From Methanobrevibacter smithii ATCC 35061 (GTDB taxonomy: Archaea; Methanobacteriota; Methanobacteria; Methanobacteriales; Methanobacteriaceae), in NCBI RefSeq assembly GCF_000016525.1, contig NC_009515.1, forward strand, positions 894,501-958,500: 64,000 nucleotides of DNA. Direction: 5' to 3'. Below are positions 11,645 through 51,980 of this stretch, piece by piece; within the stretch, counting starts at the first letter, position 1, and each line of letters starts with the position of its first letter. The translations under genes and the position numbers were made by a program. Under the pieces are notes generated by a model. It saw nothing but the letters and a program-made list of their open reading frames with translations. It did not search any database and had not been told where the DNA came from.

Positions 11645-13312
11645 TTATTTAGCATTATCCAAATTAAATTCCCTATACTTAGACTTAACAACACTCCAAC
11701 ATTCTTCAAAACCATGTTTTAAATCAATTTCCAACATTTTGTTATTCATTGCCTGTCTAAGTTCAAAATCATTAGCCACAATATTAAACTGTTCTATAAT
11801 GTCTTCCTGAGTCAAATAAGATCCAAGACCCATATTTACAAATCCGTGTTCAGGACTTCCAAATAGATTTTTCTCTTCTCTTTCATCCTTACATATAACA
11901 ATACATGGAACACCTAAAGAACAGACCTGATACATGATTCTTCCCCCAGAAGTGAAAATAACATCTGCAGAAATCATGAAGTCACTGATAGAATTTACTG
12001 TTGTATAAAACTGAACATTTTGCATAAGCTCATATTTAGCTGACAATTCTTCAAAATTTTCATGTCCTGAACCTAAAATAACATTGATTCTGCCAGAAAA
12101 CCCACTAGCTAAAAGAGCATCCAAAACTTTTTGAGACAAGTTAAGTGTATCATTTGGAGCAAAATCAATCAAAACAGTTTTAACATCATTTGTAATTATT
12201 TTTGGCTGATGCAAATAAAATTCATCTTTTAAAATGTAATATTCATGCCCCACAAAGAATTTTTCATCACCTTCATGTTCATATAATGAATCAAATACCA
12301 GATCCGCAAGATCTGAACCGCTTCCAAAATCTTCAAAATTAATTATATAATAACCCTTATTTGTCAAATCGACCATATACTCATAAGAAGTATTACCCAC
12401 ATCATTAATAATAATCTTCGGATCAAACTGTTCAAATAAACCAAGCAACTCAGATTTACCTCCATATGTTTGATATTTGTAATTATACCCTTCAATAATG
12501 TCAATTCCCAACTGATGGGTTCTATTAATAAAGAATACTACGTCATGGAATACAAGTTTTGATGCCATTGACAAACAGCGGTACATATGACCTGTTCCAA
12601 TCTGGTCATAAGCATCAACAACAAAAGCTATTTTTATTTTATTAAGATAATTATTTGCAATCCACCAGTCTTCATAAGTATTTATTTCAACACTTTCTTC
12701 ACGAGAAATCTCAATCAGGTCTATATTCAAACCTAAACGAGATGTTTCAGTTACAAAATTACGGCGAGTAGCTAATATACCTCCGGTTTCTTTAAAAGTT
12801 TTAGGAAGCAAATCCCTATATAATCTTTCAGAATAAAATGGAAAATACCTTCCATTTTCATCATCGAATCCCCACCTCAGATTCTTATCATCAACAACAG
12901 AAATTACACTATCAATATTAAAATCAGCGAATTTTTCAATAGCTTTATCTAATGTTTCAGTTTTTAGTAACGGAGAAGAAGGTTGAATTGTAATTACAAT
13001 ATCATATTCGTCAAAAGCCTGTTTTTCTTTTTGTAACATTGCATCATAAATAACAGTATCCAATAATGTTTCATCAGTAGCTAATTCTACAGGACGCTTC
13101 ACAACACTAGTACCATACTTTTCAACAATCGATGCAATTTCAGAATCCTCAGTAGACACCACTACATCATCAACATATTTTGACGATTTAGCTATATCTA
13201 TTGAGTAATAAATAAGAGGTTTTTCACCAAGTAAACGTAAATTTTTACGAGGAATGTTTTTTGAATAACCTCTAGCAGGAATCACCACCAATATCTTATT
13301 ATTTTCAAACAT
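11645..13312 (-). CDS. Fusion of an acylneuraminate cytidylyltransferase (NeuA-like) and a PseG-like nucleotide-sugar hydrolase
   Basis: 555 residues in two domains. Residues 1-~225 are an NTP-sugar transferase with VVIPARGYSKNIPRKNLRLL and PLIYYSIDIAK, the signature of CMP-sialic, pseudaminic and legionaminic acid synthetases. Residues ~228-550 are PseG/MurG-like (GT-B fold): IAFVVDAYDQIGTGHMYRCL is the UDP-sugar hydrolase start GxGHxxR, and FTSGGRIMYQVCSLGVPCIV is the nucleotide-binding turn. Together they would supply two steps of nonulosonate synthesis, sugar release from UDP and activation as CMP-sugar. The window holds no synthase (NeuB/PseI). SD TAGGGAT precedes ATG 13312. The exact nonulosonic acid is unknown. 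Confidence 0.85.
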   Translation of the reverse strand: MFENNKILVVIPARGYSKNIPRKNLRLLGEKPLIYYSIDIAKSSKYVDDVVVSTEDSEIASIVEKYGTSVVKRPVELATDETLLDTVIYDAMLQKEKQAFDEYDIVITIQPSSPLLKTETLDKAIEKFADFNIDSVISVVDDKNLRWGFDDENGRYFPFYSERLYRDLLPKTFKETGGILATRRNFVTETSRLGLNIDLIEISREESVEINTYEDWWIANNYLNKIKIAFVVDAYDQIGTGHMYRCLSMASKLVFHDVVFFINRTHQLGIDIIEGYNYKYQTYGGKSELLGLFEQFDPKIIINDVGNTSYEYMVDLTNKGYYIINFEDFGSGSDLADLVFDSLYEHEGDEKFFVGHEYYILKDEFYLHQPKIITNDVKTVLIDFAPNDTLNLSQKVLDALLASGFSGRINVILGSGHENFEELSAKYELMQNVQFYTTVNSISDFMISADVIFTSGGRIMYQVCSLGVPCIVICKDEREEKNLFGSPEHGFVNMGLGSYLTQEDIIEQFNIVANDFELRQAMNNKMLEIDLKHGFEECWSVVKSKYREFNLDNAK

Positions 13313-13395
13313 ATAAATCCCTAAATTACAAAATTTATTTAAACGTTACTAAATAATATAATAATACTAATATTAAATCTTTTAGGTGTTAATGA

Positions 13396-14442
13396 ATGAA
13401 AAATATGACAAAAGAGTTGTTAGACAAAATAAATGAAATAGCTACTCCAGTAAAAATAATGCATGTTTGTGGTTCACATGAACACGCAATTATGGAAAAT
13501 GGAATAAGGTCTTTACTTCCACCAGAAGTAGAAATCATTGCAGGACCCGGCTGTCCGGTATGTGTTGTACCTTCCCGTGAAATTGACGAATGTCTAGAAT
13601 TAGTCGACAGGGGAGTGACAGTGACTACTTTTGGAGATATGTTGAGAGTTCCTGGTTCTGAACGTTCACTTGCAGAAGCAAAAGCAGAAGGTGGAGATGT
13701 AAGAGTAGTGTATGGAATTAATAAAGCTATTGAAATAGCTGAAAAAGAGGATAATGACGTTGTATTTATGGCTGCAGGATTTGAAACCACAGCACCAACA
13801 ACTGCTGCAGAAATTTTGGCAGAACCTCCTGAAAATTTCTCAGTCTTATCCTGTCATAGATTAATCCCCCCAGCTATCGATTATTTAATAAATTCTGGGG
13901 AAACCAATCTTAATGCATTAATTGAACCTGGACATGTCTGTACAATCATAGGAACCAAGCCTTTTGAATATCTTTCAACAGACTATGGTATACCTCAGGC
14001 AGTTGCCGGATTTAATCCTTTAGACATTTTAATGTCTGTTTATATGATTTTAAGACAAATACGTGATGATACACCTAAAATAGATAACGAATACAACAGA
14101 GCAGTTAGAGACGAAGGAAATATAATAGCTCAAAAAGTTATCGATCAAGTATTTGATGTAGGTAGCAGAGAATGGAGAGGATTTCCGAAAATACCTAATT
14201 CCATTCTAGAAATTAAAGATGAATTCAGCCAGTACAATGCAAGAGCCAAATATGACATTGAAGTAAAAGATGTTAAAGAAGCTCCTAAAGGCTGTATTTG
14301 CGGACCTATTTTAAGAGGATTGGCCAGACCTGAAGACTGCAAATTATTTAGAAAATCCTGTAACCCCCTACATCCAATCGGAGCATGTATGGTCAGTAAA
14401 GAAGGAACCTGTAATATAGCCCACAGATATTCAAGGGATTAA
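13396..14442 (+). CDS. hypD: Hydrogenase maturation protein HypD
   Basis: HypD is the Fe-S scaffold on which, with HypC, the Fe(CN)2CO unit of [NiFe]-hydrogenases is built. Visible: VCGSHEH near residue 25, AGPGCPVCVVPSREID, AAGFETTAPTTAA, EPGHVCTIIGTKPFE, and the Cys-rich C-terminal part CICGPILRGL...CKLF...CNPLHPIGACM, which holds the [4Fe-4S] cluster. 348 residues, normal length. AGGTG at 13384-13388 sets ATG 13396 as start. The next gene starts two bases after its stop. The organism's hydrogenases are encoded elsewhere. Confidence 0.97.
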   Translation: MKNMTKELLDKINEIATPVKIMHVCGSHEHAIMENGIRSLLPPEVEIIAGPGCPVCVVPSREIDECLELVDRGVTVTTFGDMLRVPGSERSLAEAKAEGGDVRVVYGINKAIEIAEKEDNDVVFMAAGFETTAPTTAAEILAEPPENFSVLSCHRLIPPAIDYLINSGETNLNALIEPGHVCTIIGTKPFEYLSTDYGIPQAVAGFNPLDILMSVYMILRQIRDDTPKIDNEYNRAVRDEGNIIAQKVIDQVFDVGSREWRGFPKIPNSILEIKDEFSQYNARAKYDIEVKDVKEAPKGCICGPILRGLARPEDCKLFRKSCNPLHPIGACMVSKEGTCNIAHRYSRD

Positions 14443-43783: not shown

Positions 43784-44200
43784 TTAAGTAGTATTTGGAC
43801 TTCTGACAGCTTCTTCAGGAGACACACCTGCAGGAGTAGTTATAATAATCTCTCCAGGTTTTATTTGTATTTGCCCCTCATCGATAACATTAGCTTTAAC
43901 AGCAATAGCATTATTCGATATTAAATTAGACATGTCTTTACCATCAACAACTACTTTATGCAAATTAGCTACAGGCATAATATAATACTCCGCATCACCA
44001 GAAACATCAGTCACATTCGGTTTACCAGTTCCAGAGTCAGTAGAAGATGCATCATCAGCAGACATATCTGTTGCTGAGAAATTACTAGTCACAACCAAAA
44101 AAATCATAATCGTAAATAAAATATCTATAAGTGGGACTAAGTTAATAGCAGGTTTCCTATTAAGAACCTTCTCTTTATATGATTTAACATCAATTGTCAT
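43784..44200 (-). CDS. exbD: ExbD/TolR-like biopolymer transport protein
   Basis: 138 residues. A short cytoplasmic part, one membrane helix with the proton-carrying Asp26 in LVPLIDILFTIMIFLVV, then an outside domain of ~95 residues. In bacteria ExbD/TolR/MotB work with ExbB/TolQ/MotA to turn proton or sodium motive force into movement. The outside domain begins with a Ser/Asp-rich linker (SADDASSTDSGTG) and ends TTPAGVSPEEAVRS, without an obvious peptidoglycan-binding motif. It is preceded 8 bases earlier by exbB. Confidence 0.88.
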   Translation of the reverse strand: MTIDVKSYKEKVLNRKPAINLVPLIDILFTIMIFLVVTSNFSATDMSADDASSTDSGTGKPNVTDVSGDAEYYIMPVANLHKVVVDGKDMSNLISNNAIAVKANVIDEGQIQIKPGEIIITTPAGVSPEEAVRSPNTT

Positions 44201-44208
44201 AAAATCAC

Positions 44209-45048
44209 TTATTGTCTTAATTTACTTTCAATTATTTCAGCATTAACATTACACTTTTCCAATATAATATTTGAAATACTTTTATCTAACATACTAGGTT
44301 TAAATGAAACCTTGATATTCGCATAAGGATCAGAAATTAGTCTAGTGTTAACAACACCTTCAGCTTCTTGAAGAGCTTCCAGGGCACATTCAACATTAGC
44401 TTCAACTCTTACTTTAACTACTGCATAACCCCAGTTGGTCATTTTAGTAGCCAATTCAATTTTATCCATTTCATTTTCAACTAAACCTTGAATATAGGTA
44501 TGAAGAGGTAATAATACAATAGCTACAAATAAACCTGCAATAGTTGTTGTTAATGCCACATAAATACCCTCAGCCATAGCAGAAGGATTAGGAGTAACAC
44601 CTAATGCTTTAAAGGTCATCCAGATACCAATTACAGTACCAATCAAACCTAAAAATGGAGCTAATTCAATAATAGTTTTAATTGAATTTAATCCTTTAGT
44701 CATTTTACTTACTTCAACAATGAAAATTTGTTCCATACTTTCTTCAACTTCGGTTTTATTTTTATAACCAATTTTTAAAGTTTCAGAAATGATTTTAGAA
44801 ATAGGATTTTTAAAAGAATTAATTTGTTTTAATGCTTCAACTGCCCCTCCCCTTTCCATAGAAGAAGAAACAATACCTAAAATTTCAGTTGTATCCACCT
44901 TACTAATTTTCTTAAGATACACAATTTTTCTTAATGAAACAAGAAGACCATAAATACCAATGAAAAGAATTATATATGTAATAATTCCTCCCTGTGTAAA
45001 TATCTCCATGAGATTTTCGAAAAATTGAGTCAGATATTCAACTATCAT
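44209..45048 (-). CDS. exbB: ExbB/TolQ/MotA-like proton channel protein with an extra C-terminal domain
   Basis: 279 residues. N-terminal helix (GGIITYIILFIGIYGLLVSL), cytoplasmic helical part, then the two conserved channel helices: IKTIIELAPFLGLIGTVIGIWMTF (in two blocks) and VALTTTIAGLFVAIVLLPLH, the ExbB/TolQ signature. Residues ~200-279 go beyond a usual ExbB: YAVVKVRVEANVECALEAL, VVNTRLISDPYANIKVSF and a last helix-strand look like a ferredoxin/HMA-type beta-alpha-beta-beta-alpha-beta module without CxxC. ATG 45048 is chosen; the earlier TTG 45060 lies in the SD (GAGG). No TonB, TolA or outer-membrane protein is expected in this organism. Confidence 0.88.
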   Translation of the reverse strand: MIVEYLTQFFENLMEIFTQGGIITYIILFIGIYGLLVSLRKIVYLKKISKVDTTEILGIVSSSMERGGAVEALKQINSFKNPISKIISETLKIGYKNKTEVEESMEQIFIVEVSKMTKGLNSIKTIIELAPFLGLIGTVIGIWMTFKALGVTPNPSAMAEGIYVALTTTIAGLFVAIVLLPLHTYIQGLVENEMDKIELATKMTNWGYAVVKVRVEANVECALEALQEAEGVVNTRLISDPYANIKVSFKPSMLDKSISNIILEKCNVNAEIIESKLRQ

Positions 45049-45121
45049 TTTTATCCTCAATATAATATTTTATAAAAATAATTTATTTAACCATATACTT
45101 AATAGTTTTTAAAAAAAATAG

Positions 45122-45745
45122 CTATTGAGAATTTTTCATTTTCTCAACAGTTGCCCATGATTTCCTTACAAAATCAGGCATTTCATCATATGTAAAATTA
45201 GTTAAAAATTTTTTAGTGATTGGGTCGGAAGGATAACCTGAACCAATTCCACCCATTTTAATATAATCTTTGTTAATTTCAGCTATATGTGCATCCCTTT
45301 CCTGTTTGGCTATAATAGATGCTGCACTAACTTCAATATAATTATCATCTGCTTTATGTTCAGCTACAACATTTACTCCAGTGTCATTTGCAAGTTTGTT
45401 TTGAAAACGTTCTGCCTTAATATCAACTGCATCAACAATAGCCTTTTCAGGATTTAAATTAGAAAGAATTTTCTCCATTCCAATTCTTTCAATTTCATTA
45501 AGGTTGATTCCGTCTGCTCTCATATTATCAATATCCTGAGCAGAAATTACTACCAAATCATATTCAAACATTTTTTTTAATTTACGGGACAGAATTGTTC
45601 TTCTATTAGGAGTCAAACGCTTAGAGTCTTTTACACCCATTCTTTCTAAAACAATATCCATTTTCTCAGGAACAATAACCCCTGCAATAACCAATGGTCC
45701 TAAAACAGATCCCCGACCTGCTTCATCAATTCCCAATACATCCAT
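45122..45745 (-). CDS. rnhB: Ribonuclease HII
   Basis: Removes RNA from RNA-DNA hybrids and single ribonucleotides. Visible: GIDEAGRGSVLGPLVIAG (catalytic Asp-Glu), GVKDSKRLTPNRR, KAIVDAVD (third Asp), AEHKADDNYIEVSAASIIAK (Asp and the HKAD motif), GGIGSGYPSDPIT. 207 residues, archaeal type. SD is weak. It sits between mreB-like and exbB in the same direction, an odd but probably operonic place. Confidence 0.96.
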   Translation of the reverse strand: MDVLGIDEAGRGSVLGPLVIAGVIVPEKMDIVLERMGVKDSKRLTPNRRTILSRKLKKMFEYDLVVISAQDIDNMRADGINLNEIERIGMEKILSNLNPEKAIVDAVDIKAERFQNKLANDTGVNVVAEHKADDNYIEVSAASIIAKQERDAHIAEINKDYIKMGGIGSGYPSDPITKKFLTNFTYDEMPDFVRKSWATVEKMKNSQ

Positions 45746-45789: not shown

Positions 45790-46863
45790 TTATTTCATAG
45801 CTCTAAGACGAACTTCAGGTTCTAATGCAAGAGGTTCTGCAGCTACAATAGCAGTACCTTTTGCTACAACAGTCATAGGATCATCAGAAACTTCAATAGG
45901 AATAGATATTTCATCGAAAACCCTTTCTTTTAATCCACGGAGTCTTGAACTTCCTCCAACTGCCACTGCATTATTATAAACACCCATCATCAATTCAGGA
46001 GATAATCTTTCTAAAATAACATTTAAACCATCTACAATTTCTTGCATAAATGGTTCTACAGCATCAGCAACTAACATTGAGTCGATGACAACTTTTTTAG
46101 GCCTGTTGGTTTCTAATGATTTACCAATAACTTCAACACTTAAGTTTTCAAGTTGTTCGCTACAGTGAATCATACCAACTTCTATTTTTGCAGATTCTGC
46201 ATCATGAATACCAATAGCTACATTATATTTTTCTGCAACCAATTCAACTATTCTGTTATCAATGTCATCTCCACCGCATCTAACTGTTTCAATATCGTTA
46301 ATACCACCAAGGGAAATGATAACAATATCTGTTGATCCTGCACCAATATCAATAACCATAGTTCCGTTTGGTTCAGCAATAGGTAAACCTGCACCAATAG
46401 CTGCTGCCAATCCTTCACTAATTACAAGAATGTTTTCTGCTCCAGCTTTCCTACCAATCTCTTCAGCTGCATTTTTTTCTACTTCAGAGGAATCTCCAGG
46501 AATACCAATAACGATTCTTCCAACACTTTCCCCCTCTTCTATACCAATTTGCATAGCTTTAATAAGTAAAGCTTGTGCTTGAGCTACGTTTTCAATGACT
46601 CCTTTTTTCAAAGGTCTTACAGCAAGAATATCTTCAGGAGTTCTACCAAGCATTTTTTTAGCTTCTTCCCCAACTGCTAAAACTTCAGACGGATCATCTT
46701 TTTTAACAGCAACAACTGATGGAATTTGATATAAATCAAATTTATCTCCAGATGGTTTTGCAATTACAGTGTTTAAAGTTCCTAAATCTATTCCCAAGCT
46801 GTTACTAATGATTCTAGTATCATTAACTTGTGATTCCTCTTCTTCATTTCCAAAAATATTCAT
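45790..46863 (-). CDS. mreB: MreB-like actin homologue
   Basis: 357 residues of the actin/HSP70 ATPase fold. Phosphate-1 loop NSLGIDLGTLNTV, connect-1 RIVIGIPGDSS, phosphate-2 MVIDIGAGSTDIVI, adenosine motif AVGGSSRLRGLKE. The RPLKKGVIEN and EGLAAAIGAGLPI stretches are close to MreB. MreB-like proteins in archaea are largely limited to pseudomurein-walled lineages, where they probably guide cell-wall growth. The N-terminal ~18 residues are acidic (GNEEEESQVND) and lack the amphipathic helix of bacterial MreB. SD GGAGGATT overlaps the stop region of the upstream unknown gene. Confidence 0.9.
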   Translation of the reverse strand: MNIFGNEEEESQVNDTRIISNSLGIDLGTLNTVIAKPSGDKFDLYQIPSVVAVKKDDPSEVLAVGEEAKKMLGRTPEDILAVRPLKKGVIENVAQAQALLIKAMQIGIEEGESVGRIVIGIPGDSSEVEKNAAEEIGRKAGAENILVISEGLAAAIGAGLPIAEPNGTMVIDIGAGSTDIVIISLGGINDIETVRCGGDDIDNRIVELVAEKYNVAIGIHDAESAKIEVGMIHCSEQLENLSVEVIGKSLETNRPKKVVIDSMLVADAVEPFMQEIVDGLNVILERLSPELMMGVYNNAVAVGGSSRLRGLKERVFDEISIPIEVSDDPMTVVAKGTAIVAAEPLALEPEVRLRAMK

Positions 46864-46865
46864 GA

Positions 46866-47501
46866 CTAATCCTCCGTTACAATATCTTTAAAATCAATGA
46901 CAAATATCCTATTAGATGTAGCTATACTCTGGACTTTTTCAATATCCTCATCTTTTTCAACTGAAATCAGAATTGTTGATAATACAACATCGCTTATATT
47001 ATATAATGGCTTTAAAGCAGATTTAATAAAATTTGGTAGTTTAACATTAGAATTTATATCAACATCAATAAAACCTGTAGTTTGAGATTCCTGTAAAATT
47101 GCAAATGAAACTTTAGATTTCTCAAGAACATAAACAAGATTTTTAATCATGTCCTCCGGAGCAACTAAAACCATTAAATTAGGTTCTTCAGTTAAATAAT
47201 GGCGAGTTATTTGTATAAAAGCCCCACCTCTCTGATTACAAAGTCTTTTAAATTGATTAATTTTCCTTGAATTACCATATAACATGATAAAATCAAATTT
47301 TTTATTCAATCGTTTATCCTTTAATATAACATGCTCCCTAAATAGAATTTTTACAGAATGCTTAGAAGCAATTGCTTTATAGGCTATGTCATCTATTAAA
47401 TTAACATTTCCTGCAGCTATACACCAAACTTTTTCATCTTGGTTTTCATTATCCGGTGTTAACCGTGCAGCTTGTCTAAGTGCTTGTATATCCTCTATCA
47501 T
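46866..47501 (-). CDS. Unknown protein encoded directly upstream of mreB-like
   Basis: 211 residues, no signal peptide or membrane helix, alternating alpha/beta with two similar halves: WCIAAGNVNLIDDIAYKAIA and VILKDKRLNKKFDFIMLY in the first, LMVLVAPEDMIKNLVYVL and VLSTILISVEKDEDIEK in the second. I recognise no family. Its TAG stop is two bases from ATG of the mreB-like gene, whose SD lies in its last codons, so the two are translationally coupled and probably functionally linked. Confidence 0.65.
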   Translation of the reverse strand: MIEDIQALRQAARLTPDNENQDEKVWCIAAGNVNLIDDIAYKAIASKHSVKILFREHVILKDKRLNKKFDFIMLYGNSRKINQFKRLCNQRGGAFIQITRHYLTEEPNLMVLVAPEDMIKNLVYVLEKSKVSFAILQESQTTGFIDVDINSNVKLPNFIKSALKPLYNISDVVLSTILISVEKDEDIEKVQSIATSNRIFVIDFKDIVTED

Positions 47502-47845: not shown

Positions 47846-48544
47846 ATGAAATTAGAAAGTACAAAGATTCAAAGTTTTTTTGCAATATCTGATGGAATAT
47901 CACTGATGAACATGCTATGTGGATTTATCTCAATTCTTCTTGCGATAAATCATAATTTTGAATTATCAGCAATTCTGATGATAATAGCTATCATGTTTGA
48001 CTCTGTAGATGGATGGGTAGCTAGGAAAATTAATAGAAATGATAAATTAAAATTTGGGCAAAATATAGACTCCCTTTCAGACGCCATATCCTTCGGTGCG
48101 GCACCTGCAGTATTCCTCTATACTATCAGTAGTACAATACCTCATAATCTTTCAATACTTCCGGCAATCATTAGTTTATTAATTGTAGCTTGTGGTGTCT
48201 TAAGATTAACCAGATACAATGCAATAGCAGATTACATCCAAACACATGACTTTATAGGATTTCCAATTCCAGGAATAGCTATTATATTAGCTACATTCTA
48301 TTTAAGCGGATTGTTCAATATTTATATTGCTTTAATATTAATGACAATAGTGTCTTTATTGATGATTAGCAATGTTACATACCCAAAATTTGACAATTTA
48401 ATTATAATCGGAATTTCTGTAGTGCTAATAGTGTTAATTATACTTCCAATAAGTCTAACACTCTTCGGCATAAACATACCTGCATTGATACTATTGATAT
48501 TTTCCTTATATTACCTGTTAATTAATTTAATTAAAATCAATTAA
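47846..48544 (+). CDS. pssA: Archaetidylserine synthase (CDP-alcohol phosphatidyltransferase family)
   Basis: 232 residues, about seven membrane helices. The CDP-alcohol motif is complete: FDSVDGWVARKINRNDKLKFG then QNIDSLSDAISFG (D-x2-DG-x2-AR-x(8)-G-x3-D-x3-D). NMLCGFISILLA before it and the PLAYLLP-like FPIPGIAIILA later match PssA. It makes archaetidylserine from CDP-archaeol and L-serine; a decarboxylase would give archaetidylethanolamine. ATG 47846 follows GGAG at good spacing; ATG 47834 has no SD. It is the first gene of a run with a DUF515 protein and a sortase. Confidence 0.92.
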   Translation: MKLESTKIQSFFAISDGISLMNMLCGFISILLAINHNFELSAILMIIAIMFDSVDGWVARKINRNDKLKFGQNIDSLSDAISFGAAPAVFLYTISSTIPHNLSILPAIISLLIVACGVLRLTRYNAIADYIQTHDFIGFPIPGIAIILATFYLSGLFNIYIALILMTIVSLLMISNVTYPKFDNLIIIGISVVLIVLIILPISLTLFGINIPALILLIFSLYYLLINLIKIN

Positions 48545-48547
48545 ATT

Positions 48548-48580
48548 ACCCATCTACTTTTTTAAACTAAAAGTAGGGGT
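48548..48580 (+). promoter_or_regulatory. Hairpin that sequesters the Shine-Dalgarno of the DUF515 gene
   Basis: ACCC (48548-48551) and CTACTTTT (48554-48561) pair with AAAAGTAG (48569-48576) and GGGT (48577-48580), with an AT bulge and a 7-base loop: 12 pairs. The right arm contains AGGGGT, the SD 8 bases before ATG 48589. It starts three bases after the pssA stop and has no T-run, so translational control or RNA processing is more likely than termination. Confidence 0.55.
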
Positions 48581-48588
48581 ATAAATCA

Positions 48589-49761
48589 ATGATTGACCAA
48601 AAACCAAGAGATCCATTATATCCTCAAGGATTTGAGGATATAGATAACCTTAAAAACCGTCAAATACCACGACCAAAACCTAAAGAAAACGAAGATAATG
48701 ATTTAAAAATATTAAAATCATTCAATCAGAAATTAGGAAAATATATTGGTCCGAAACCAAAAAATATAATTGAAAATGAAGAAAAGAAAAAAATAGGTAT
48801 GATAATTACAACTTTAATTATCCTAACTTTAGTAATATCCACATATTATTTCTTAATTTATGAACCGTCACAGGAAGAGCTAAATTTAGCAAAAACAACC
48901 AAACTTAATGAACTCCACAGTCTTTATACAGGTGCACTAACAAGCTCCAGCGAAGCTATGATATTAGAAAATGAAATCAACAATGCCAGAAGCAAAAATG
49001 AAGTGGAATCAATAAATATACTGTCACCCGCAACTAAAGCCTGGAAATCATTTCATAAAAAGTCCATAAATGCAAATTTAGACCCGTACAACAGAACCAT
49101 GGCAACATATACTGACAACAATACCAAAAATGCAATAATGCCTGCAAGTGAAGCTTTAACAATTGTTGATGAAAACAATGCAGAAGTTCTCTCCAAAATT
49201 AAATTTGAAAAACCGAATACAGTGTCAGTGCCTATTTTAGTTTCAAGACTGCAGGCAGGAGCCGGACTTGTAAATGTAGGAAGTGTTGTTGATATCTACA
49301 CCAGCTCAAATTATACGGAAAATGGAACACCAAACAATCAAACAAATCCAGATATAAAGGGATGTACTGTAGTTTCCATAATGAGATGTGAAGAAAACGG
49401 AGAAATTGACAGTGAATACTCAAAAGCAAATACAGTTGTTCATGGAAACAACACAAATCCAAATGAAAATACACAAACCTTCAAATCCAATGTTTTAGAA
49501 CTTTTAAAAGGTTCAATAATAAACGGATACAATGAAAAACAGACAGCCGAATTATTGCAGAATTACGGTATAAAATTATCCAATTATGAAAGGCAAATTA
49601 ATCTTGGAGATTTAGATGCACAGTATATGTTACTTGTTGAAACCCCTCAGGATAAGGTTAATTTCTTATTGGACAATATGGATCAAATCATATTAACAAT
49701 TCCAACAACAAATGCACCTTCATGGATGGTTAATGAAATAAATTCAACTTACAACAAATAG
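48589..49761 (+). CDS. DUF515-like membrane protein with CpaB/SAF-like features
   Basis: 390 residues. Residues 1-~65 are cytoplasmic, Pro/Lys-rich; one membrane helix at ~67-88 (GMIITTLIILTLVISTYYF); the rest is outside, with several NxT sequons. SVPILVSRLQAGAGLVNVG with VDIYTSS resembles the conserved block of CpaB/RcpC pilus-assembly proteins. I recall a methanobacterial family DUF515 with this layout. It lies between archaetidylserine synthase and a sortase, which suggests a cell-surface assembly job; it could be a sortase partner or scaffold. Confidence 0.72.
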   Translation: MIDQKPRDPLYPQGFEDIDNLKNRQIPRPKPKENEDNDLKILKSFNQKLGKYIGPKPKNIIENEEKKKIGMIITTLIILTLVISTYYFLIYEPSQEELNLAKTTKLNELHSLYTGALTSSSEAMILENEINNARSKNEVESINILSPATKAWKSFHKKSINANLDPYNRTMATYTDNNTKNAIMPASEALTIVDENNAEVLSKIKFEKPNTVSVPILVSRLQAGAGLVNVGSVVDIYTSSNYTENGTPNNQTNPDIKGCTVVSIMRCEENGEIDSEYSKANTVVHGNNTNPNENTQTFKSNVLELLKGSIINGYNEKQTAELLQNYGIKLSNYERQINLGDLDAQYMLLVETPQDKVNFLLDNMDQIILTIPTTNAPSWMVNEINSTYNK

Positions 49762-49799
49762 GTAAAATATTTTAAACTAAAAAATAAAAAGTTGATAAC

Positions 49800-50522
49800 A
49801 TGGACAAACCAAAAATTACAACCATAGTTGTTATAATTTGTATAATCATATTAGGATTATATGCAGCAGGAGAAGTTAATTATTACTCATCAAAAATAGC
49901 TATTGAGAAAAATATTGATTCTCCTGTTGTAAATATACCAACCATTGGAATTGAAGAGAAGATAAATAATGTATCTCTTTCACAAGGTGTTATGCATGAT
50001 GCAAAATCATTTACACCGACAAATGGAGATGTTATACTGTCAGGACACAGAACTCTTCAGGGATCACCATTTTTAAGACTTAATGAGTTGAATAATGGAG
50101 ATGTAATTACTTTAGAATGGCCGGGAATCGGGGAAGTAAACTATACTGTCATAAACAAGACTATAGTCGAACCAACTGCCCGCATCAATACTCAAAGTAA
50201 TGGAACACACATATATCTAATTACCTGTGACCCAATCGGATCTACAGCACATAGATTAATTATTGAAGGGGAGTTAAGTGATGTTGGTCCAATAAATGAT
50301 AAAATAATTCAAAATAACCCACATGAATCATATGCATTAATAATAACTACTGCATTTTTAGTTATAGGGTTAATATTCAGTTATTTCTATCCTAAGGACA
50401 ATAGAATTTACATATTAGCTATAGTGCTGATTATATCAGCAATATTATTCTATTTCTACCTTTTCCCAATAGATTCTAATATAATTTATGAAAAGATATT
50501 ATGGTTAAACGGAGGAATGTAA
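49800..50522 (+). CDS. Sortase (class E-like) with N- and C-terminal membrane helices
   Basis: 240 residues. One N-terminal helix (~8-25), a beta-barrel sortase domain, then two C-terminal helices (~180-200 and ~207-225). Catalytic triad: His83 in ILSGHRTLQGSPF, Cys143 in YLITCDPIG, Arg152 in AHRLIIEGEL; the spacing is as in SrtD/E. Sortases cut a C-terminal sorting signal and transfer the protein to an amine acceptor. In a pseudomurein archaeon the acceptor could be the wall peptide or a lipid amine; see the neighbouring pssA. Archaeosortases (ArtA) are a different family. It starts 38 bp after the DUF515 gene and is followed after 3 bp by mptD. Confidence 0.9.
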   Translation: MDKPKITTIVVIICIIILGLYAAGEVNYYSSKIAIEKNIDSPVVNIPTIGIEEKINNVSLSQGVMHDAKSFTPTNGDVILSGHRTLQGSPFLRLNELNNGDVITLEWPGIGEVNYTVINKTIVEPTARINTQSNGTHIYLITCDPIGSTAHRLIIEGELSDVGPINDKIIQNNPHESYALIITTAFLVIGLIFSYFYPKDNRIYILAIVLIISAILFYFYLFPIDSNIIYEKILWLNGGM

Positions 50523-50525
50523 AGT

Positions 50526-50894
50526 ATGGATGTAGATGAAAAATACTTTTCAAATATAACCTCAAGAGAAAGAGCAATATTTGAAGGTGCAATAAGTATG
50601 GGAGCACTATTTCACCAATTTGTTGGAACTCCCGTAAATAAAAGTTCTAAAAAAAGCTTAGAAACAAGTATGGAAGAATCATTAAAATTACAGCCAGCTA
50701 TTGAAGATGTTGATGTTAAAATCAGATTTGATAAACTAGAAGAATCAATGAGCGACTTTGATTACACTTCTTTAACTGGAGATATGCTTGATGTTAAAAT
50801 ATATACAAAAGTAAAGGATGTTCAGGCTACAATAAGAATAGAATTTATTGAAGAGTTAAATTATCCTTTAATGTATGTAGAAGACATCAATTAA
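50526..50894 (+). CDS. mptD: Dihydroneopterin aldolase, archaeal MptD type
   Basis: 122 residues. ERAIFEGAISMGALFHQFVGTPVN is split as ERAIFEGAISMGALFHQF and VGTPVN and is the hallmark of the archaeal DHNA family (formerly DUF381). Cleaves 7,8-dihydroneopterin to 6-hydroxymethyl-dihydropterin, a step in tetrahydromethanopterin synthesis. It begins 3 bases after the sortase stop, with GGAGG in the sortase's last codons serving as SD. Its association with surface genes looks like operon hitch-hiking. Confidence 0.92.
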   Translation: MDVDEKYFSNITSRERAIFEGAISMGALFHQFVGTPVNKSSKKSLETSMEESLKLQPAIEDVDVKIRFDKLEESMSDFDYTSLTGDMLDVKIYTKVKDVQATIRIEFIEELNYPLMYVEDIN

Positions 50895-50939: not shown

Positions 50940-51890
50940 TTAATCAACCAACTCAAAATTAATTAACTGATTGGTTTCCAAATCCTCATCATGTATATTA
51001 ACAGATGTTTGAGGACCATCATATGTTTTATAATACAATATTCCCTTATCTGTATTGTAACAGTCTGAATAAATAGTATACTCAAATTTATCAGGTTCTT
51101 CCACTAACGTACATCCTTTTTGCTGTTCAACAGATGCCAGAATATGGAAAAACTGAGACACACTTTCTTTTTCAGAATCTCCGGAAACGGAATTTTCTTT
51201 AACAAAAGCTGCTTTTACAAAACGGGACTGTGAAGAAACATCCCCCGGAAGACCAATTGAACCCATTCCCCGACTATAAGTTGCCAAATCCAAATTGCCT
51301 CCAAAGGTATTTTCAGGCGTTCTGTTTGATAATGCCATATAATTATTTAAATTAAATAGCTGTTTATCAAAAGGAGGGTTGTTTGTTAAAACTCCTACAG
51401 GATTATCATAAATATCCAGTCCTTCCTCTACAACCTCTACAACAATTGAAGCATTCCTATCTGAAATAATCCAATGAAGTGGAGATGGAGGCAACTGGGC
51501 GGAAAATTTCTCATCTGAAATATTTAAGTTTTCCAATAACCTTTCGGCATCACTGATGGTTTTTGCTTGAGATAATATATATGGAATAATCTCAAAAGAA
51601 GCTATGTTAACTTTAGATTTATCTAGTGGTTTGTAGTCACAGTAATCCGGAAAGTTTAATCCCCCCATAGCTAATCCTTTCTCATTACATGCATCATAAT
51701 ACAAAGGATATTCATCAATACCTGCAGCTATGCCAATAATCCCATAATGATTTTCAATGTCCTCAGTATCCCTGAATATTAAAGGATAGTTTCTAGGAGT
51801 TATCGTTACTCTTTCATTATATGAAATTTCATAGTCAAAATTACGGCCAAAATAATGGCATTTTGTTAAATAATTTGCAGCAGTACACAT
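50940..51890 (-). CDS. bsh: Choloylglycine hydrolase (bile salt hydrolase)
   Basis: 316 residues, Ntn-hydrolase. Starting at ATG 51890 the protein begins MCT, so Cys2 becomes the N-terminal nucleophile once Met is removed; the in-frame TTG 51899 would bury it and is rejected. Other active-site features: GRNFDYE (Arg16, Asp19), VLTNNPPFDKQ (Asn), SRGMGSIGLPGDVSSQSRFVK in two blocks (Arg). Deconjugates glycine/taurine bile salts, giving bile tolerance in the gut; a functional archaeal BSH is known from M. smithii. Probably acquired from gut Firmicutes. GGAGG lies upstream. Confidence 0.94.
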   Translation of the reverse strand: MCTAANYLTKCHYFGRNFDYEISYNERVTITPRNYPLIFRDTEDIENHYGIIGIAAGIDEYPLYYDACNEKGLAMGGLNFPDYCDYKPLDKSKVNIASFEIIPYILSQAKTISDAERLLENLNISDEKFSAQLPPSPLHWIISDRNASIVVEVVEEGLDIYDNPVGVLTNNPPFDKQLFNLNNYMALSNRTPENTFGGNLDLATYSRGMGSIGLPGDVSSQSRFVKAAFVKENSVSGDSEKESVSQFFHILASVEQQKGCTLVEEPDKFEYTIYSDCYNTDKGILYYKTYDGPQTSVNIHDEDLETNQLINFELVD

Positions 51891-51980
51891 AATTACCAAA
51901 CCTCCGTTGATAATTAATTATGTATAATCCATATTTATACTTAATTATATATTCTAAAAAAAAGAGCAGAAACAAAAAAA

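Follow-up and report, generated by a model that had tools for sequence, protein, structure and literature searches.

A conserved sortase locus of Methanobrevibacter smithii and a candidate TGxP sorting signal on archaeal surface proteins

The three-gene run and its sortase

Within a 64,000-nucleotide stretch of the Methanobrevibacter smithii ATCC 35061 genome (NC_009515.1, positions 894,501 to 958,500; the window, whose coordinates are used below), we analyzed a run of three genes encoding an archaetidylserine synthase (PssA), a DUF515 protein and a sortase. We consider it likely that this sortase belongs to an archaeal pathway that anchors TGxP-tailed surface adhesins, most likely to pseudomurein; both the cleavage and the acceptor we infer. 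The features of the run are as follows.

47846..48544, plus strand: pssA, archaetidylserine synthase (CDP-alcohol phosphatidyltransferase); NF038087; motif DSVDGWVARKINRNDKLKFGQNIDSLSD
48589..49761, plus strand: DUF515 protein; Pfam DUF515, 8.9e-12
49800..50522, plus strand: sortase, 240 amino acids (aa); Pfam Sortase, 8.6e-17; AlphaFold and Foldseek
50046..50048, plus strand: codon of sortase catalytic residue His83, invariant in 42 orthologues
50226..50228, plus strand: codon of sortase catalytic residue Cys143, invariant in 42 orthologues
50253..50255, plus strand: codon of sortase catalytic residue Arg152, invariant in 42 orthologues

As the initial annotation of this DNA had described, all three genes run in one direction, with short gaps of 44 bp (pssA to DUF515) and 38 bp (DUF515 to sortase).

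By sequence and predicted structure, the third gene encodes a true sortase, a membrane-bound cysteine transpeptidase of the sortase superfamily (peptidase C60). The protein scores above the cut-offs of both Pfam PF04203 (8.6e-17, 61.5 bits; cut-off 26.6) and TIGR01076 (47.5 bits; cut-off 39.35). Its AlphaFold model (pLDDT 89) comprises an N-terminal membrane helix (residues 6-36), a barrel (43-163) and two C-terminal membrane helices (178-196 and 202-221). Sortase structures were the top Foldseek matches, with class C first (E 7e-11 to SrtC), followed by other classes. Against the NCBI class models, the protein scored 51.4 bits for class C (cut-off 160), 42.8 for class D and 38.5 for class E (cut-off 160), and we leave its class open because no curated class model reaches its cut-off. 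The sortase and catalytic triad of the initial annotation are upheld (42/42 orthologues), whereas its class E-like label, outscored by classes C and D, is rejected.

A TGxP tail on secreted proteins

In sortase-bearing genomes, we found secreted proteins whose C termini consist of [M/L]-x-x-T-G-x-P, some 16 hydrophobic residues and a basic K/R tail. A DNA pattern for M-[K/Q]-x-T-G-x-P was scanned over 150 genomes, with the reversed pattern as a control. The 130 non-Methanosphaera genomes gave 344 matches against 21 for the control, and the 20 Methanosphaera genomes gave 3 against 2; the richest single genomes held 32, 31, 25 and 19 matches, with the control at zero. The search for a shared C-terminal sorting motif suggested by the initial annotation was thereby rewarded. 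Of the 30 pattern loci inspected, 20 have the motif 26-36 residues ahead of the stop, with a hydrophobic segment after it and, nearly always, a K/R end; the remaining 10 resemble chance matches. Sixty distinct tails that passed a TGx[P/A] filter have proline at the last position in 58 cases; M is most frequent three positions ahead of T, and K or Q two positions ahead.

Methanothermobacter, its sister lineages and Methanobacterium-type genera (19 of the 150 genomes) have one more gene between DUF515 and the sortase. Its product, here termed X, is a secreted protein of roughly 300 aa and a putative dedicated substrate. No Pfam or NCBIfam family matched X, whose tail runs xTG-[AVIT]-P-Y-G, then hydrophobic residues, then a basic end (for example, VPSKETGVPYG-hydrophobic-YARFMR). 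A profile built from the X tails finds PMQKTGVPIG-type tails on proteins encoded elsewhere, and TGxP-tailed genes lie less than 12 kb from the sortase in loci L233, L241 and L292.

The first tail profile (A1) missed the M. smithii candidates; a widened version (A4) finds five, encoded by scattered genes, with three of the products being DUF11 adhesins. The DUF11 domain is known from adhesin stalks (PMC12617251).

C1:166884: candidate substrate, about 2880 aa; LPNTGNP; DUF11 repeats
C1:391480: candidate substrate, about 1414 aa; LPKTGLP; DUF11 repeats
C1:1569262: candidate substrate, about 2709 aa; AMAKTGNP; DUF11 repeats
C1:53161: candidate substrate, 251 aa; DLAKTGIP
C1:23794: candidate substrate, 354 aa; ASTGLP

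This set derives from the searches and from chosen stretches, and may be incomplete. A plain LPxTG scan of M. smithii, which gave 45 matches against 35 for its control and two at C termini among those inspected, was replaced by the tail profile as a means of finding substrates. Naive counts of LPQTG are inflated by CTTCCACAAACTGG, which is repeated identically at about ten sites on contig C1 of M. smithii, in the same 50-codon frame at the sites inspected, and is probably an insertion element. Leahy et al. 2010 noted two LPxTG proteins in M. smithii, msm0173 and msm0411, presumably the proteins encoded at C1:166884 and C1:391480.

The candidate signal resembles that of Gram-positive housekeeping or class E systems (Streptomyces SrtE1, with LAXTG/LPXTG substrates), in which (L/M)xxTG is likewise followed by a hydrophobic segment and a basic tail, and the enzymes share the His/Cys/Arg triad, the barrel and membrane attachment. 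Unlike in those systems, the archaeal motif has a near-invariant proline two residues after TG and often Met-Lys/Gln in place of Leu-Pro, the M. smithii sortase falls under the class E cut-off and carries two C-terminal membrane helices, and the host wall is pseudomurein rather than murein.

Helices at the C termini of such proteins have been noticed before. Gupta & Seedorf 2024 reported membrane helices at both termini of 11 M. smithii adhesin-like proteins (ALPs) and a single N-terminal anchor in 39 of 42 M. stadtmanae ALPs, and interpreted the helices as membrane anchors; the term sortase is absent from their paper (PMC11532034). The presence or absence of a sortase would explain this contrast, which fits the distribution of the enzyme between M. 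smithii and Methanosphaera. The hydrophobic helix and basic end of the TGxP tails are also what plain C-terminal membrane anchors would look like, as these authors read such helices (PMC11532034), in which case the sortase would act on something else. However, a plain anchor would have no need for T-G-x-P to be conserved at a set spacing from the helix, the motif stands at background in the sortase-less Methanosphaera, and a TGxP protein is encoded beside the sortase in deep lineages; we regard plain anchoring as quite unlikely.

The class C pilin sortases (Actinomyces oris SrtC1, 2xwg; SrtC2, 8t28) are the nearest relatives of the M. smithii enzyme by both HMM and fold and share a C-terminal membrane segment. 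Together with the stalk repeats of the substrates and the possibility that the Methanothermobacter neighbor X is a subunit, these likenesses would suit a pilin polymerase that links subunits through lysine, as class C sortases do. Yet the enzyme lies under the class C cut-off and reaches that of no other class model, we have no evidence here of pilin operons or polymerization, and the signal is common to many unrelated large adhesins, as would suit a general housekeeping enzyme. Outside the two-sortase genera, moreover, this is the only sortase in most genomes. A polymerase therefore seems a poor prospect to us, and sorting of surface proteins to an anchor is the reading that we prefer.

A second, shorter sortase (about 200 aa) was observed in Methanothermobacter-type genera (L300:7849-8445, minus strand, in M. 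thermautotrophicus, G017; L306:8209-8808, minus strand). It sits in a different conserved neighborhood, with mechanosensitive-channel-like and RNase Z-like genes, and scores best to class E at 59 bits, below the cut-off of 160. In L300, a TGxP-tailed surface protein (VVGMERTGSPVAG) is encoded about 3.5 kb from this second enzyme.

Gene order and the place of PssA

The three-gene run is flanked by a divergent block upstream and by a pterin-synthesis gene downstream.

43784..45745, minus strand: exbD, exbB and rnhB, the rest of the divergent block; ExbD 6.9e-9, MotA_ExbB 7.9e-29, RNase_HII 1.4e-53
45790..46863, minus strand: MreB-like actin; Pfam MreB_Mbl, 8.2e-97
46866..47501, minus strand: 211-aa protein of unknown fold, "coiled coil" OG0001176 of Lupo 2025; no Pfam match
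50526..50894, plus strand: mptD-type dihydroneopterin aldolase (pterin synthesis); Pfam DHNA, 2.2e-42

The 211-aa gene and mreB are separated by 2 bp, and the sortase and mptD by 3 bp. The order exbD-exbB-rnhB-mreB-[211 aa], divergent from (asd-)pssA-DUF515-(X)-sortase-mptD, was found in most of the genera sampled, from Methanothermobacter to Methanobrevibacter, and in 72 named loci of a separate collection. Its recurrence across most Methanobacteriales genera is far beyond chance. The initial annotation had asked whether pssA, DUF515 and the sortase are conserved together or are neighbors in this strain alone; the cluster spans most of the order, and with it a real sortase system extends well beyond M. 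smithii.

The gene cluster itself is ordinary and already listed; the substrate system is the new part. The locus corresponds to "cluster C" of Lupo et al. 2025 (MreB, coiled coil, RcpC/CpaB and "Sortase E"), which that paper judges unrelated to pseudomurein synthesis; its cluster C groups are reported there from each of the five pseudomurein species analyzed, including one from Methanopyrales (PMC11915815). In the text consulted, neither that paper nor Leahy 2010 reports a general TGxP signal, a dedicated substrate, a wider substrate set or a joint loss. In the open-access literature searched, we found no earlier description of the signal, the dedicated substrate or the wider substrate set; an account in a subscription journal is possible.

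Several variations in gene order were observed. The ExbB/ExbD-like pair (43784-45060, minus strand), beside rnhB and mreB, is kept across the order. In L070 (G032; 11649-13557), mreB and the 211-aa gene lie on the far side of mptD, still less than 5 kb from the sortase. Directly after mptD, M. smithii carries a choloylglycine (bile salt) hydrolase-like gene (50940-51899, minus strand), whereas in relatives mfnA follows mptD without such a gene between them.

PssA itself matches Pfam CDP-OH_P_transf (5.5e-16). Its CDP-alcohol motif is complete, as the initial annotation stated, with 10 residues from AR to G as in the M. thermautotrophicus enzyme. The protein exceeds the cut-off of the NCBIfam archaetidylserine synthase model NF038087 (299 bits; cut-off 240) and falls below that of the "protein sorting system" subfamily NF038086 (93 bits; cut-off 200). 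It is an ordinary archaetidylserine synthase, a long-standing neighbor that would serve general membrane-lipid synthesis and probably takes no part in the sortase function.

The initial annotation had proposed a partnership between the sortase and archaetidylserine synthesis, with the DUF515 protein as a possible guide. In such a model, the enzyme would attach the C termini of its substrates to an amine of an amino-lipid, archaetidylserine or archaetidylethanolamine, that PssA (and Asd) supply, so that surface proteins become lipid-linked in the manner of ArtA. Precedent exists in Haloferax, where PssA and PssD are required for ArtA processing, and in Methanosarcina, where artA adjoins pssA and pssD (PMC7157517). 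Both systems have a tripartite C-terminal signal and adjacency to pssA and asd/pssD, and the order asd-pssA-DUF515-substrate-sortase occurs in Methanothermobacter-type genera, which are deep lineages. ArtA, however, is an unrelated polytopic enzyme with a PGF motif rather than TGxP, and the PssA studied here is of the general NF038087 type, not NF038086.

The distribution of pssA also speaks against the partnership. The gene is present in all 20 Methanosphaera genomes, none of which has the sortase, and over the 150 genomes its presence shows no association with that of the sortase (Fisher p = 0.3). In the complete genome G033, it has moved to near 1.15 Mb, about 1 Mb from an intact DUF515-sortase-mptD block at 2.13 Mb, and in G072 (90% complete) it was not found, with an intact locus that runs from the 211-aa gene via DUF515 to mptD. 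Among the 47 loci showing both flanks, 38 have pssA between the 211-aa gene and DUF515 and nine do not, while in some termite lineages (L074, L076, L286, L287, L291) the pssA-DUF515 pair lies apart from the sortase-mptD pair. In Methanobrevibacter-type loci, asd is not beside pssA. Finally, mptD adjoins the sortase in 69 of 72 loci and DUF515 in 66 of 72; because this functionally unrelated pterin enzyme is linked as tightly, we rejected adjacency at the locus as a sign of shared function. Lipid anchoring as in the ArtA system is on this evidence improbable. An amino-lipid acceptor is possible, with gene order as its sole positive support. Because of the order found in the deep lineages, we keep open, as a long shot, that amino-lipid anchoring evolved twice, the second time with a classical sortase, unrelated to ArtA, and adjacent PssA/Asd.

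MreB, DUF515 and a model of wall anchoring

Across the 150 genomes, the presence of the sortase is strongly associated with that of MreB (p = 6e-14). Of 90 good genomes, 74 bear the sortase, 72 of them with MreB; of the 16 without the sortase, 3 have MreB (72/2/3/13). None of the 20 Methanosphaera genomes, which keep pssA and DUF515, has the sortase or, at the threshold used, MreB; the 211-aa gene was not found among the Methanosphaera genomes listed, and in the three loci inspected (L081, L298, L299) the gene set is present except for mreB, the 211-aa gene and the sortase. Together with the conserved divergent block, the shared loss of sortase and MreB in Methanosphaera, a coccoid genus nested among rods (PMC13135261), and the MreB-like pattern of the Bacillus subtilis sortase YhcS (PMC12445088), this co-occurrence could mean that the sortase works within an MreB-directed machine for wall elongation, alongside the 211-aa protein and DUF515; such a role would come on top of anchoring and would not replace it. 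Against this stand the single clade that drives the statistic, the housekeeping nature of rnhB and mptD within the block, the persistence of DUF515 in Methanosphaera without sortase and MreB, and genome G107, related to Methanobrevibacter, which retains MreB, the 211-aa gene, pssA and DUF515. There the sortase alone is cleanly lost, leaving a DUF515-mptD junction (L294, G107:C61, between 6374 and 6565). We consider such a machine rather unlikely; a possible link between sortase and MreB is suggested by the shared locus, the joint loss and the B. subtilis report.

The DUF515 protein has a cytosolic N-terminal tail, one membrane helix, a helical stalk and a putative RcpC/CpaB-like (SAF-type) outer domain. 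The single-pass protein with a CpaB-like block described initially is borne out in its membrane helix and DUF515 match, and in part in its CpaB-like block: the RcpC/CpaB match in M. smithii is weak (0.0029, 18 bits against a Pfam cut-off of 28.8), whereas the Methanothermobacter orthologue (L062) exceeds that cut-off at 30.1 bits. The best PDB match is the Tad pilus protein RcpC (9gzr; E 0.05, probability 0.97), on a weak model (pLDDT 70) of which we use the outer-domain similarity alone. A literature search for DUF515 returned nothing relevant. The cytosolic tail appears to be very variable, with proteins of 361 to more than 700 aa (L069, L070, L258, L283) and long versions in M. ruminantium and termite lineages.

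We know of no account of how surface adhesins are attached in pseudomurein-walled archaea. Sortases attack a Thr-Gly bond, hold the substrate as a thioester and transfer it to an amine, and pseudomurein peptides offer lysine side chains, with ornithine too in some species. Wall anchoring is our first choice because of these lysine side chains and because the lineage is defined by its pseudomurein wall. By analogy, C143 would attack the Thr-Gly bond in the [M/L]-x-x-T-G-x-P tail of secreted surface proteins, for the most part large adhesin-like stalk proteins, and would pass the bound substrate to a cell-surface amine, most likely a lysine (or ornithine) side chain of pseudomurein or of a lipid-linked precursor. 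In older lineages, the pathway would be fed by X, the dedicated substrate encoded at the locus itself; in M. smithii, the products of the five scattered genes with the signal would take this part. The process may, we speculate, be directed to places where the wall grows by the DUF515/CpaB-like protein and the divergent MreB block.

Several observations weigh against this model. The pseudomurein acceptor, most likely as it is, has analogy as its basis, and the tail profile was built from the genomes later searched with it. Two of the five M. smithii signals deviate just before TG (AKTGIP, ASTGLP). Genus g13 has the sortase with zero matches to the M[KQ]xTGxP pattern and few to the profile, and the sortase-bearing G070 has a single weak tail match. 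Conversely, draft genomes G086 and G132 carry tails without a sortase match, most likely through assembly gaps. As to the MreB link, Methanosphaera is one clade, so the joint loss is essentially a single event, and G107 has MreB without the sortase.

If the model is true, sortase display reaches beyond murein to pseudomurein walls, and the MreB neighborhood gives an initial clue to the sites at which these cells add surface proteins. With a defined signal and a short substrate list in the main human-gut methanogen, covalent anchoring is directly testable, and Methanosphaera and G107 provide natural sortase-free controls. In G107, we found one weak tail match (E 0.036), compared with 7 and 12 in its sortase-bearing relatives G002 and G016.

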